A stretch of DNA of 64,000 nucleotides. Origin: Siccirubricoccus deserti (GTDB taxonomy: Bacteria > Pseudomonadota > Alphaproteobacteria > Acetobacterales > Acetobacteraceae). A model generated the notes under the pieces. That model worked only from the letters and a program-made list of their open reading frames with translations. It made no database searches and was not told the DNA's origin. Below are positions 44,118-48,975 of this stretch, piece after piece (positions within the stretch are counted from its first letter, which is position 1; every line of letters starts with the position of its first letter). A program made the translations under genes and the position numbers. The stretch spans positions 62,001 to 126,000 of the forward strand of contig NZ_JACOMF010000008.1 of the NCBI RefSeq assembly GCF_014283215.1, written 5' to 3'.

Positions 44118-45221
44118 TCAGGGCTGGCGCCGGGGTTCGCGGTAGGTGAAGCCCTCCCCGCTTGCCGCCGCCGTCGCGACTGCCGATGCCAGCAACGCAT
44201 GGTGCGGCGAAAAGGCGCAGGCCGGGTCGGTGGCGGCGGCGTCGCCGGTCAGGGCAAAGGCCTGGCAGCGGCAGCCGCCCCAATCCACCTCCGCCCGGTC
44301 GCAGCCACGGCAGGGCGGCGGCATCCAGCCGGTGCCACGGAACCGGGCGAAGGCCCCGGAATCCTCCCAGGCCTGCCGCAGCGAAACCTGGCGCACATCG
44401 GGGAAGTCGAAGCCGGGCAGGCTTTCCGCGGCATGGCAGGGCAGCACCCGGCCGGCGGGAGACACCGCCAGGAAGCGCCGGCCCCAGCCGCCCATGCAGG
44501 ATTTCGGCCGCGCCGCGTGGTAATCCGGCACCACATAGTCGATCACCAGCCGGCCGCTCAGCGCACGGCGGGCCGCCTCCACCGTTCGGGTCGCCGCCTC
44601 AAGCTGGTCGCGGCCTGGCAGCAGCGCGTCACGGTTGGCGAGCGCCCAGCCGTAGTACTGCACATGCGCCACCTCAAGCCGCCCGGCGCCGAGGTCGAGC
44701 GCCAGCGCGATCAGCGCCGGCAGCCGGTCGAGGTTCTGCCGGTGCACCACCGCGTTCAAGGTCAGCGGCAGGCCAGCCTCGGTGACCAGCCGCGCCGCCG
44801 CCAACTTCCTCGCATGACCGCCGGCATAGCCGCCGATGCGATCGGCGGACGCCGGTTCGGCGTCCTGGACCGAGAGCTGCACATGGTCCAGCCCGGCCGC
44901 CGCCAGCGCCGCCAGCTTTGCCGCATCCAGCAGCACACCGGCGGTGATCAGGTTGGTGTAGAGCCCGGCCGCGCTGGCCGCCGCGACGAGCGCCACGATA
45001 TCACGCCGCGCCGTGGGCTCGCCGCCGGAGAGATGCACCTGCAGGCAGCCGAGCGCCGCCGCTTCGCGGAACACCCGCGCCCAGGTCGCGGTGTCGAGCT
45101 CGGCGCCAGGGCCGGTCAGGGCGGTGGGGTTGGAGCAATAGGGGCAGTGCAGCGGGCAGCGATGGGTCAGCTCGGCGAGCAGCGCGAGCGGCGCTTCGAT
45201 GCTGCCCCGGCCCGCCGTCAT
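44118..45221 (-). CDS. pqqE: PQQ biosynthesis radical SAM enzyme PqqE
   Basis: Forms the carbon-carbon bond between Glu and Tyr of the PqqA peptide, with PqqD as peptide chaperone. The radical SAM motif CPLHCPYC supplies Cys 22, 26 and 29, followed by the SAM-binding HLSGGEPTARRDI. The C-terminal SPASM region contains the auxiliary-cluster cysteines in KSCMGGWGRR, PCHAAES, PPPCRGCDRAEVDWGGCRC and DPACAF. It is 367 aa, normal for the family. Its ATG overlaps the pqqD stop by four bases, so it is translated with PqqD. Confidence 0.96.
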   Translation of the reverse strand: MTAGRGSIEAPLALLAELTHRCPLHCPYCSNPTALTGPGAELDTATWARVFREAAALGCLQVHLSGGEPTARRDIVALVAAASAAGLYTNLITAGVLLDAAKLAALAAAGLDHVQLSVQDAEPASADRIGGYAGGHARKLAAARLVTEAGLPLTLNAVVHRQNLDRLPALIALALDLGAGRLEVAHVQYYGWALANRDALLPGRDQLEAATRTVEAARRALSGRLVIDYVVPDYHAARPKSCMGGWGRRFLAVSPAGRVLPCHAAESLPGFDFPDVRQVSLRQAWEDSGAFARFRGTGWMPPPCRGCDRAEVDWGGCRCQAFALTGDAAATDPACAFSPHHALLASAVATAAASGEGFTYREPRRQP

Positions 45222-45487
45222 GCCAGCACCACGCCCCGGGCGTGAAGATCCTCCAGCAGCGCCAGCACATCGGCCAGGATCTCCGTACGCGGCGCGTCGT
45301 AGAGGGCGGCGAGGTCGTCGGCCATGGCATCGATGCTGCGGGCCCCGTCCAGCAGCCGCAGCACCTCCAGCGCCACCGCGTCCGGCACGAACATCCGCTC
45401 CGGCCCCAGCACCACCCATTGACCGCGCGCCTTGTCCTCGCGCAGCCGCATCCCCGGCGCCAGGCGCGGGATGCTGGCGGGATTCAT
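45218..45487 (-). CDS. pqqD: PqqA-binding peptide chaperone PqqD
   Basis: A small (89-aa) RRE-fold protein that binds PqqA and presents it to PqqE. The start PRLAPGMRLREDKARGQWVVLGPERMF and the tail IDAMADDLAALYDAPRTEILADVLALLEDL are typical. ATG 45487 gives family length. Four-base overlaps with both pqqC and pqqE show a single coupled transcript. Confidence 0.94.
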   Translation of the reverse strand: MNPASIPRLAPGMRLREDKARGQWVVLGPERMFVPDAVALEVLRLLDGARSIDAMADDLAALYDAPRTEILADVLALLEDLHARGVVLA

Positions 45488-46227
45488 GGCGGCGTGCCGG
45501 GGCGGAAGGCGCCGGGCGGCGGCAGCGCGGGCGCGACATAGGCGAAATGCAGCGCATCGAGCTGCGCCCAGAGCAGGTCGCATTTGAAACGCAGTGCATC
45601 CATCACCTGCTCCTGCTCCGCCCGCGTCCGTGCCTCCCGCTTCACGTAGTCCAGGGCGAAACGCACATCCTGCGGCGCCTGGGTGAGGCGCGGGGTGAAA
45701 TAGGCCAGCGTCTCCGCCGAGACGAAGTCGTAGCCCCGCAGCATGCCGGCGACGCGCTGCGAGATGATGTCCGGCGAGAACATCTCCGTGAGTGACGAGG
45801 CCACCGCTTCCAGCACCGAGCGGTATTTCACGAAGTTCACATAGGCATCCACCGCGAAGCGCGTGCCGGGCAGCAGCCCGCGCAGCGAGGTCACGTAGTC
45901 CCGGTCGAGGCCAAGCCCGTCGGTCAGCCGCAGCCAGCGCTCGACGCCGCCAGGGTGCTCGCCGTCGCCGTCATGGTCGGCCAGCCGCCGCCGCCATTCC
46001 CGGCGCAGCGCCGGCGTCGGCAGCCGGGCGATCAGGGAGGCGTCCTTCGCCGGAATGCTGGCCTGGTAGTAGTAGCGGTTCAGCGCCCAGGCCTGCACCT
46101 GCCCTTTCGTCAGCCGCCCGCCATGCAGCAGGTGATGGAAGGGGTGGTGGATATGATAGCGCTCCTCGCCGATGGCGCGGAGGCGCCGCTCCAGCTCCTC
46201 CGGCGGCAGCGGCGCGTCATCCGTCAC
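45484..46227 (-). CDS. pqqC: Pyrroloquinoline-quinone synthase PqqC
   Basis: Catalyses the last, cofactor-free ring closure and eight-electron oxidation to PQQ. The 247-aa all-helical protein carries YHIHHPFHHLLHGGRLTKGQVQAWALNRYYYQ, KDASLIARL, RRLADHDGD, AVDAYVNFVKYRS and SSLTEMFSP, which include the active-site His, Arg, Tyr and Lys residues of PqqC. It overlaps pqqB and pqqD by four bases each. Confidence 0.96.
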   Translation of the reverse strand: MTDDAPLPPEELERRLRAIGEERYHIHHPFHHLLHGGRLTKGQVQAWALNRYYYQASIPAKDASLIARLPTPALRREWRRRLADHDGDGEHPGGVERWLRLTDGLGLDRDYVTSLRGLLPGTRFAVDAYVNFVKYRSVLEAVASSLTEMFSPDIISQRVAGMLRGYDFVSAETLAYFTPRLTQAPQDVRFALDYVKREARTRAEQEQVMDALRFKCDLLWAQLDALHFAYVAPALPPPGAFRPGTPP

Positions 46228-47156
46228 AGCGTGATCTCCATGCCATCCTCGGCAACCTCCCAGCCGGCGGCGACGGCGGCCGCGCGCTCCGGGCTGTCGG
46301 CCAGCAAGACGGGGTTGGTGTTGTTCAGATGGATCAGAATGCGGCGCCGCACCCCGAGCCGGGCGAAGCCCGCCATGGTGCCCTCCGCGCCGTTGATGCT
46401 CATGTGTCCCATCCGCCGTCCGGTCTTCGGCCCGGCGCCGGCGCGGATCATCTCATCGTCCTGCCACAGGGTGCCGTCGAACAGCACGCAGGCGGCGCCT
46501 GCAAGCCGGGCGCGCAGCGCCGGCGTCAGGGCGGCGCAGCCGGGGATGAAGAACAGTGTCCCGCCGCCGGCGGAGAGGGCGAGGCCGATGGTCTCGCCAT
46601 CCTCCGCCCGGCCGGGATCGGCGCCGCCTGCCTCCTGGAACAGCGGCACCTTGCCCGGTACGGCGAAGGCTTCGAGGGTGAGGCCGAGGGGCGTGCCGGC
46701 GGCATCGCACAAGGGCGTGCCCTCTTCCAGCGGCAACCGGCGCCGCGGCACCAGCGCCGGGTCCAGCACCTGGAAGATCGGGTTCGCCGCCAGCACGCCG
46801 AGCGCCGGCGCACCGGCGTAGAGGGCGAAGGGGTGGCGTTCCCGCAGGGTCAGCAACCCGGCGATGGCATCCACCTCGGCCCCGGTCAGCACCACCGCGG
46901 CGATCGGCGAGTGCCGTATGGCGCCGGGCCCCGGACGCGGGTGCAGCACCTGCGTCGCTTCCAGCTGCGCCCGCAGGTCGGGCGCGGCGTTCAGCAGCAC
47001 CCAGCGCTGCCCATCGGCCGAGATCGCCACCGAGGTCTGGCTGCGCGGCCGCGCCGCGGGGTCGCCGGCGCGGGCGCGGCGGCAGCCCGGCCCGGCGGAA
47101 TTCCATTGCGGGAAGCCCCCCCCTGCCCCGGCACCCAGGATGATCGCCCGCATCAT
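46224..47156 (-). CDS. pqqB: PQQ biosynthesis hydroxylase PqqB
   Basis: A metallo-beta-lactamase-fold iron enzyme that hydroxylates the cross-linked Tyr intermediate. It begins MMRAIILGAGAGGGFPQWNS and shows SQTSVAISADGQRWVLLNAAPDLRAQL, SPIAAVVLTGAEVDAIAGLLTLRE and GRRMGHMSINGAEGTM. The start can be ATG 47156 or ATG 47153; AGGGGGG is just upstream. Length about 310 aa is normal. It follows the short pqqA-like gene after a 19-base gap. Confidence 0.95.
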   Translation of the reverse strand: MMRAIILGAGAGGGFPQWNSAGPGCRRARAGDPAARPRSQTSVAISADGQRWVLLNAAPDLRAQLEATQVLHPRPGPGAIRHSPIAAVVLTGAEVDAIAGLLTLRERHPFALYAGAPALGVLAANPIFQVLDPALVPRRRLPLEEGTPLCDAAGTPLGLTLEAFAVPGKVPLFQEAGGADPGRAEDGETIGLALSAGGGTLFFIPGCAALTPALRARLAGAACVLFDGTLWQDDEMIRAGAGPKTGRRMGHMSINGAEGTMAGFARLGVRRRILIHLNNTNPVLLADSPERAAAVAAGWEVAEDGMEITL

Positions 47157-47175
47157 GCCCCCCTGCGGAACAGGT

Positions 47176-47250
47176 TCAGCCACGCCCGGCGCAGGCTTTG
47201 ATCTCGAGCGCGAGGGGGATTCCGGTCACGCGGGGCTTGCTCCAGACCAT
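47176..47250 (-). CDS. Variant PqqA-like precursor peptide lacking the cross-link Tyr
   Basis: A 24-residue peptide gene just before pqqB. It reads MVWSKPRVTGIPLALEIKAC and then AGRG. The first 16 residues match PqqA, including the Glu (E16 in LALE), but position 20, where PqqA has the Tyr that PqqE joins to this Glu, is Cys. It therefore cannot yield PQQ by the known route. GGGGAG lies five bases before the ATG, so it is probably translated. A normal pqqA gene lies 450 bases upstream. It could be a decaying duplicate or a separate PqqE/PqqD substrate; see findings. Confidence 0.8.
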   Translation of the reverse strand: MVWSKPRVTGIPLALEIKACAGRG

Positions 47251-47698
47251 GGGATCTCCCCTTGATGACTGCGCCAGAGCGGATCGTGGAAGAACGTGAA
47301 CGCCCCGGAACGCGAATCCGTTTCACGAGCAACGGCCCAGCGTGACTCGGCGTTCAGCCGGACTGCAAAGCGCTGTCGCGGCGTCTTGCCGGCTGCACGG
47401 GCGGGCCTCAACCGGCTACCGCCCTTGCACCGTCGCCGTCACCGCGGCGGCGGCGTGGCTGGCGGTAAGGTCGGCGGCCTACATACCGGCGATATCCCGC
47501 GCCAGCAGGTTCATCTGCTCGTGCCGGTGCCGTCGCTGCGGAAGGTGCGGAGCTAGGTTGCGGCGTGGAGCGGATTTTGGCCGGCCAGGTTCTGTACGCC
47601 AACGGTCGGGAGAAGACCGGACAGAAAGCCCGGCGCCGGAACGGCCGGCGCAGGGCCTCATGCAATGAGCGAAGAGAAGAATCGGCCGCGAGGAAGCC
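47251..47698. other. Interval between the two pqqA-type genes
   Basis: This 448-base gap carries a copy of repeat family A (47293-47375). The rest is GC-rich with no convincing coding frame on either strand; several short open frames lack ribosome-binding sites and family signals. Whether the two precursor genes share one transcript cannot be read from the sequence. Confidence 0.5.
47293..47375. repeat. Dispersed palindromic repeat family A, copy 1
   Basis: Shares the core GTGAACGCCCCGGAACGCG with copies at 54149-54238 (inverted) and 63601-63690, then a palindromic half with GGCGTTCAG and TGCAAAGCGCTG matching GGCGTTCAG and TGCAATCCGCTG. The hairpin arms are more degenerate here (CAGCG at 47339-47343, CGCTG at 47371-47375). 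Confidence 0.55.
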
Positions 47699-47779
47699 TC
47701 AGCCGATCTCCGCGCAGGCGTAGCTGTTGATCTCGAGCGCCAGGGATATCTCGGTTACGCGCGGCTTCTTCCAGACCAT
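47699..47779 (-). CDS. pqqA: PQQ precursor peptide PqqA
   Basis: A 26-residue precursor that starts MVWKKPRVTEISLALEINSY. The Glu (E16) and Tyr (Y20) that become the PQQ skeleton are spaced by three residues, as in all working PqqA peptides. GGAGG six bases before the ATG is a strong site. The gene is the promoter-proximal member of the pqq cluster; a second, altered copy lies before pqqB. On this strand a weak -35/-10 pair (TTGATG and ATCATA, 18-base spacer) sits at about 47812-47841. Confidence 0.92.
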   Translation of the reverse strand: MVWKKPRVTEISLALEINSYACAEIG

Positions 47780-47860
47780 GTTTGCCTCCATCCGGCGGTG
47801 CGCCATCGGGTATGATGGCCCCCGGTGCAGGCACCATCAAGGGGATGGGCTGGTCTTCCC

Positions 47861-47889
47861 TTGAACCGCGGCCGTCCCGGCCCTACAGA
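47861..47889 (+). promoter_or_regulatory. Probable sigma-70 promoter of asd
   Basis: TTGAAC (47861-47866), 17 bases, TACAGA (47884-47889), located about 50 bases before asd in the divergent pqqA-asd gap. Confidence 0.5.
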
Positions 47890-47940
47890 ACCGGCGCCCT
47901 CCGTCGAAGCGGGGGGCCTCGGTCGTTTCAGGAGCAGGTC

Positions 47941-48975
47941 ATGGGCTACAGGGTCGCGATCGTCGGCGCCACCGGTGCGGTGGGGCGCGAGATGCTGAAG
48001 ACCCTCGCCGAGCGGAACTTCCCGGTGAGTGAGGCCATCGCCCTCGCCTCGGGCCGTTCGACGGGGATGGAAGTGTCCTTCGGCGAGAAGACCGTGCTCA
48101 AGGTGAAAAACCTGGAGACCTTCGACTTCAAGGGCATCGATATCGGCCTGTTCTCCCCGGGCGCCTCGGTCTCGGCGGTGCATGCGCCGCGGGCGGCGGC
48201 GGCGGGCTGCATCGTCATCGACAACACCAGCCAGTTCCGCATGGACCACGACGTGCCGCTGGTGGTGCCGGAGGTGAACCCTCACCACCTGAAGCAGTTC
48301 AGCAAGCGGAACATCATCGCCAACCCGAATTGCTCGACCATCCAGATGGTGGTCGCGCTGAACCCGCTGCACGCCATCAGCCGCATCAAGCGGGTCGTCG
48401 TCTCCACCTACCAGTCGGTCTCCGGCGCCGGCAAGGAAGGCATGGACGAGCTGTTCAACCAGACCCGCGCCGTCTATGTGAACGACCCCTCTGTGCCCGA
48501 GCAATTCACCAAGCCAATCGCCTTCAACTGCATCCCGCACATCGACCGGTTCATGGATGATGGGAGCACGAAGGAGGAGTGGAAGATGGCGGTGGAGACC
48601 AGGAAGATCCTTGACCCCGATATCGCGGTCATCGCCACCTGCGTCCGCGTGCCGGTCTTCATCGGCCATTCGGAAGCCGTGCACGTCGAGTTCGAGGGCC
48701 CGATCACCGAGGAGCAGGCCATCGAGGCGCTGCGGGACGCGCCCGGCGTCCAGCTCATCGACAAGCGCGAGGATGGTGGATACATCACCCAGATCGACGC
48801 CGCCGGCGAGGATGCCGTCTACGTCAGCCGGCTGCGCCGCGACCCGACCGTGCCGCATGGCCTGGCCTTCTGGTGCGTCTCCGACAACCTGCGCAAGGGC
48901 GCGGCACTGAACGCGGTGCAGATTGCCGAGGCGCTGGTGGAACAGGGGCTGATCACGGCGAAGCAGGCGGCCTGA
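47941..48975 (+). CDS. asd: Aspartate-semialdehyde dehydrogenase
   Basis: Reduces aspartyl phosphate to the semialdehyde in the lysine, threonine and methionine pathway. NADP site YRVAIVGATGAVGREMLKTL; catalytic Cys in IIANPNCSTIQMVVAL; active His region RVPVFIGHSEAVHVEFE. The 344-aa length suits the Gram-positive/alpha type of the enzyme. AGGAG lies ahead of ATG 47941. It is a monocistronic housekeeping gene, divergent from pqqA. Confidence 0.96.
   Translation: MGYRVAIVGATGAVGREMLKTLAERNFPVSEAIALASGRSTGMEVSFGEKTVLKVKNLETFDFKGIDIGLFSPGASVSAVHAPRAAAAGCIVIDNTSQFRMDHDVPLVVPEVNPHHLKQFSKRNIIANPNCSTIQMVVALNPLHAISRIKRVVVSTYQSVSGAGKEGMDELFNQTRAVYVNDPSVPEQFTKPIAFNCIPHIDRFMDDGSTKEEWKMAVETRKILDPDIAVIATCVRVPVFIGHSEAVHVEFEGPITEEQAIEALRDAPGVQLIDKREDGGYITQIDAAGEDAVYVSRLRRDPTVPHGLAFWCVSDNLRKGAALNAVQIAEALVEQGLITAKQAA

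Follow-up and report, generated by a model that had tools for sequence, protein, structure and literature searches.

A second pqqA-type gene beside pqqB in Siccirubricoccus deserti is probably a decaying duplicate

Multicopy pqqA and the pqq locus of the window

The enzyme PqqE is described as cross-linking Glu16 with Tyr20 of the PqqD-bound precursor peptide PqqA, abstracting a hydrogen from Glu16, and the same source names C-S bonds among the cross-links formed by peptide-acting radical SAM enzymes (PMC10906245). In the account given for the PqqA of A. calcoaceticus, replacement of Tyr by Phe suffices to abolish PQQ (PMC2294125). Multiple pqqA genes are reported from methylotrophs: Methylophilaceae carry 3 to 12 copies (PMC4109929), and multiple copies are also present in Methylorubrum and Methylovorus (PMC6520949), usually with a single pqqB-E set. 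The locus described here likewise has more than one pqqA. However, broken copies are not described in the excerpts of those reports, whereas the second copy here is without Tyr; no Tyr-less pqqA appeared in the titles and abstract openings of the literature on pqqA, among the matches listed.

We analyzed a 64,000-nucleotide stretch of S. deserti DNA (the window) from a 6.33-Mb draft genome of 275 contigs. Its minus strand carries a distal pqqA (47699..47779) and a proximal pqqA-like open reading frame (ORF; 47176..47250), both at the coordinates and on the strand given by the sequence-only reading that preceded this analysis. These are followed by pqqB (46224..47153; TIGR02108, 382 bits), pqqC (45484..46227; TIGR02111, 371 bits), pqqD (45218..45487; TIGR03859, 74 bits), and pqqE, which encodes the radical SAM/SPASM enzyme (44118..45221; TIGR02109, 546 bits), all on the minus strand. 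SPASM relatives of PqqE form C-S cross-links on peptides. A profile match identified the divergent asd gene (aspartate-semialdehyde dehydrogenase) upstream of the pqq genes, and between 44118 and 48975 the genes identified are pqqA to pqqE and asd only. Across 46 loci, counting that of the window, asd was detected in 24, including both congeners and all 8 long loci; the other 22 have no asd inside the available stretch, 8 of them being shorter stretches of the same 8 genomes. When the whole genome was queried with the intact PqqA peptide at E up to 10, the only matches were the gene itself and the proximal ORF (E 0.0016). A promoter and terminator scan of 47140 to 47960 returned no match.

The distal gene encodes an intact PQQ precursor peptide, MVWKKPRVTEISLALEINSYACAEIG, with Cys22 and with the Glu16/Tyr20 pair (E-x-x-x-Y) that the earlier reading had recognized, and it scores above both family cut-offs (TIGR02107, 39.6 bits with a cut-off of 20; PF08042, 27.1 bits with a cut-off of 21.1). 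In the ORF list its frame is also open from an earlier ATG at 47806. The Shine-Dalgarno sequence TGGAGG (47785..47790, minus strand) resembles the TGGAGGA of several relatives, and the leader ggatggaggcaaac-ATG is similar to the pqqA leader in several related genera. A strong hairpin lies 3' of the gene (47625..47659, minus strand; the 92-nt region has a minimum free energy of -37.7 kcal/mol, z -2.1), and hairpins similar in kind are found 3' of pqqA in two relatives folded for comparison. The gene adjoins asd, as does pqqA in both congeners. The best explanation of PQQ supply at this locus is that the intact distal pqqA would feed PqqB-E.

The proximal ORF and its missing tyrosine

The proximal ORF encodes MVWSKPRVTGIPLALEIKACAGRG and is homologous to PqqA over codons 1 to 17, in keeping with an earlier claim of homology for the first 16 residues with Glu16 retained. 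A search within the locus aligned it to the distal copy over 54 nt at 83% identity (E about 1e-11), a match by which the homology is judged not to be due to chance. With PqqA (TIGR02107/PF08042, in the acetic-acid-bacteria form, a placement drawn from named relatives) it shares codons 1 to 17, among them Trp3, Pro6, Glu16, and Ile17, and a downstream Cys. In contrast to PqqA, it is degenerate: it has neither residue 19 nor residue 20 (Ser-Tyr), it has lost Glu10 and Asn18 together with the acidic tail, and the score falls under the family cut-offs (TIGR02107, 18.0 bits with a cut-off of 20; no Pfam hit with an E of 1 or less). There is no Tyr anywhere in the peptide, and so the E-x-x-x-Y of functional PqqA is absent. 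Because Glu16 is left without its cross-link partner, the peptide should not be a PQQ precursor; PqqE needs Tyr in that role, and the proximal copy would be unable to yield PQQ.

Counted without gaps, the peptide has a Cys at residue 20, which had been proposed to stand where PqqA has the cross-linked Tyr. Alignment gave a different placement. In 22 rows (the proximal peptide, the distal peptide, and 20 of 25 peptides from other genomes), the intact peptides end E-I-N-x-Y-x-C, and the proximal peptide is gapped by two residues at Ser19-Tyr20, its Cys landing on Cys22, which is common to all 22 rows. With the proximal row removed, W3, P6, E10, E16, I17, N18, Y20, and C22 are invariant in the remaining 21. 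Among 120 distinct intact pqqA genes, a set that includes second copies and was picked by a Tyr-requiring pattern (so that Tyr itself is uncountable), position 10 is Glu in 104 and position 18 is Asn in 103. In the DNA after codon 16, opening a 6-nt gap raises the matches with the distal gene from 13 to 18 of 24 nt; none of 20000 base shuffles reached 18 matches, and 0.6% reached 13 ungapped. BLOSUM62 scores for the two peptides are 86 gapped, before the gap penalty, and 65 ungapped; the penalty is about 12 to 13. Against intact genes of 26 residues, the 6-nt gap adds matches in 43 of 52 comparisons and brings no gain in 9, some comparisons being repeats because a single DNA sequence stood in for all genes with identical peptides.

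Since the gapped tail match of 18 of 24 nt was unreached by shuffles and puts the Cys on Cys22, a deletion is favored: the Tyr was most likely lost through a 6-nt in-frame deletion, with Asn18 becoming Lys by the same event. A Tyr-to-Cys point substitution (TAC to TGC) is a poorer account, as it takes the gap to bring Ala-Cys-Ala and the terminal Gly-stop into register. Judged on this alignment, the margin of deletion over substitution is clear but not huge, and a Cys seems to replace Tyr only when residues are counted without gaps. A single sequencing error was also considered and seems improbable; a 6-nt deletion together with several separate differences within 24 codons would not amount to one error.

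The earlier proposals of a competitor or a new modified peptide had been premised on a Cys placed at the Tyr position, and the alignment instead suggests the ordinary YxC cysteine shifted by a two-codon deletion. Because Cys occupies position 22 in 95 of the 120 intact genes, it is no special acceptor. We hold it extremely improbable that the ORF encodes a precursor from which PqqE makes some other modified peptide containing Cys. It does encode Glu16 and a Cys four residues on, and C-S cross-links are made by radical SAM peptide enzymes (PMC10906245), but this Cys aligns with the ordinary family Cys22 and is general to this type of PqqA, the variant occurs in one genome and is not conserved among the genomes searched, and the genes identified around it are those for PqqA-E and asd only. 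We likewise give very little credence to a broader proposal, in which translation yields the shortened Glu16-x-x-x-Cys20 peptide, PqqD/PqqE act on it, and the outcome is a Glu-Cys cross-linked peptide or else a dead-end product that regulates PQQ output, the in-frame deletion having made a new substrate of a spare precursor; if this were true, the substrate range of PqqE would be wider than known.

Several observations count against decay. The frame is kept, along with Trp3, Pro6 (W-x-x-P), and Glu16-Ile17; the ORF is preceded by AAGGGGAG (47256..47263, minus strand), a good Shine-Dalgarno-like sequence that makes the previously suggested ribosome-binding site plausible; its stop lies 22 nt upstream of pqqB, much like the 24 nt separating an intact pqqA-pqqB pair (locus L024); and the ungapped alignment is likewise above chance. 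The open frame is weak evidence because 82% to 55% of simulated frames of this length were still open after 5 to 20 random substitutions. The 39-nt stretch 3' of the ORF folded no better than shuffles.

The Shine-Dalgarno sequence and the stop 22 nt before pqqB would also suit an ORF whose peptide is useless but which is kept as a short translated leader coupling translation to pqqB, and short ORFs are visible by eye upstream of pqqB in Roseicella (L142) and L005 as well. We regard such a leader as unlikely: pqqB is preceded by its own Shine-Dalgarno-like AGGGGGG, the short ORFs of L142 and L005 are by eye mutually dissimilar in sequence, and in the Belnapia-type loci compared pqqB lies within about 10 nt of the cytochrome c stop. 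Those two dissimilar ORFs are of 12 codons and end about 8 to 10 nt before pqqB, in loci with a long pqqA-pqqB gap.

A further alternative is that the peptide is expressed and binds PqqD/PqqE without offering a cross-link acceptor, acting as a dominant-negative brake on PQQ synthesis. The largely kept N-terminal 17 residues with Glu16 would fit this, given that PqqE is described as taking a hydrogen from Glu16 of PqqD-bound PqqA (PMC10906245); but the common Glu10 is lost, only one genome was found to contain this copy, and there is no sign of expression, so that we judge the brake highly improbable. A leader, competitor, or new-precursor role is conceivable though improbable and has no positive support.

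Relatives and the cytochrome c relic

Both other genomes searched for the genus carry one intact pqqA, about 40 nt upstream of pqqB. At the level of the family, at least one pqqA-profile match (E up to 1) was found in 256 of 397 genomes, which were drawn from a larger group and of which many are fragmented, so that more decayed copies could escape the profile; genomes with a single match were counted as such rather than read individually for Tyr. Leaving aside the genome of the window, none of these genomes (396 of the 397) showed a further pqqA next to pqqB, and when the 42 genomes with several matches (that of the window excluded) were searched again, none had two separate pqqA matches close together on one contig. 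In one of the genomes a single pqqA gene is apparently split in two pieces (G177:C1:1799304-1799380). The earlier reading had named absence of the Cys variant from close relatives as the result that would reduce it to a degenerate copy or an error, and absence is what these searches returned.

Among 80 named pqqB loci, pqqA was found in 74, all with Tyr, and none was seen in 6; the pattern used accepts only Tyr, Phe, Cys, or His four residues after Glu, and its 7 extra matches in 6 loci are not pqqA, judged by their sequence and location. Additional or alternative copies make up 20 further pqqA loci from 18 family genomes, of which 18 look intact with E-x-x-x-Y. The other two are extra copies that are broken: L152 (G284:C82) has Ser at the Tyr position, and L162 (G137:C78) keeps E-x-x-x-Y but has a stop in place of the Trp codon. 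Second pqqA copies thus decay elsewhere too. Like the proximal ORF, these two are minus an essential residue or the frame; unlike it, they have other lesions and are on a different contig from the main copy of their genome. Relatives also have a dispersed second pqqA type, WKKPRxxE(I/V)CLGLEINAYAxAT, at L149, L150, and L151.

Between the two pqqA-type ORFs lies what is left of the 3' part of a cytochrome c gene, broken by stops (47416..47592, minus strand; 68% nucleotide identity to Roseicella aerolata, E 1e-13), and tblastn extends a 43% match (E 1.4e-6) over 47419 to 47655 with an internal TAG. Because this relic with its stops occupies the same gap, the proximal copy adjoins the ruin of a gene. 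Roseicella and Belnapia relatives have an intact cytochrome c gene in their pqqA-pqqB gap; elsewhere in the genome of the window no close intact version was found, the best other match being 43% identical. We compared eight genomes chosen as having no pqqA within 1.5 kb of pqqB (L141 to L148), apparently including Roseicella aerolata (L034/L142) and Belnapia moabensis (L039/L144). In all eight, asd and pqqB are separated by genes for a glucose/sorbosone-dehydrogenase-type protein (PF07995) and a cytochrome c (PF00034), and in seven, that is, in every genome in which pqqA was found, these two genes stand between pqqA and pqqB. In L141 (G116:C210), asd, the dehydrogenase gene, the cytochrome c gene, and pqqB stand in the usual order, and no pqqA was found between asd and pqqB. 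On cursory inspection the gap in the window holds the cytochrome c relic only, with no dehydrogenase remnant noted.

Origin of the copy and its likely fate

Both copies begin with M-V-W, a start absent from the other 119 distinct intact genes; two of these have Val before Trp, after a longer start. Over its first 54 nt the proximal ORF matches Roseicella pqqA at 47 positions and the distal gene at 44, a slight edge for Roseicella. The two comparisons point in different directions on a recent tandem origin from the distal gene. Its place may be the original position of pqqA, because in the congeners pqqA lies 40 nt before pqqB.

For substitution patterns, the reference set comprised the 13 sequences nearest the proximal copy over the 54 nt (12 relatives and the distal gene), one dispersed second copy being omitted. 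Within codons 1 to 17 the proximal copy has three unique states, at codons 4, 10, and 12, all nonsynonymous; the two unique states of the distal gene, at codons 8 and 11, are silent third positions. Mean differences were 2.3 synonymous and 6.8 nonsynonymous between the proximal copy and intact genes (12 comparisons) and 4.0 synonymous and 2.5 nonsynonymous in 78 intact pairs, figures that are tiny counts over 17 codons from non-independent comparisons with relatives selected for nearness to the proximal copy. No orthologue of the proximal copy was found in the genomes searched.

The proximal ORF has lost residues conserved in the family, scores below the cut-offs, and is absent from the relatives searched, all of which supports the decaying copy that the sequence-only reading had taken as its default. 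We consider it very probable that this ORF is a redundant second pqqA copy decaying in a degenerating segment, with PQQ coming from the distal copy. Duplication or recombination would have produced the proximal copy, in a segment where a cytochrome c gene also once stood; the Ser-Tyr codons of the copy would then most likely have been removed by the 6-nt in-frame deletion, and further conserved residues would have been lost by substitution. Because the essential Tyr has been lost, most likely by a small deletion, this is probably a case of ordinary duplicate decay rather than a novel class of peptide. The tempting reading of a Cys replacing the cross-linked Tyr is thereby removed, and the locus would illustrate, on a small scale, how a redundant precursor-peptide gene can decay and yet keep the look of an intact short ORF.
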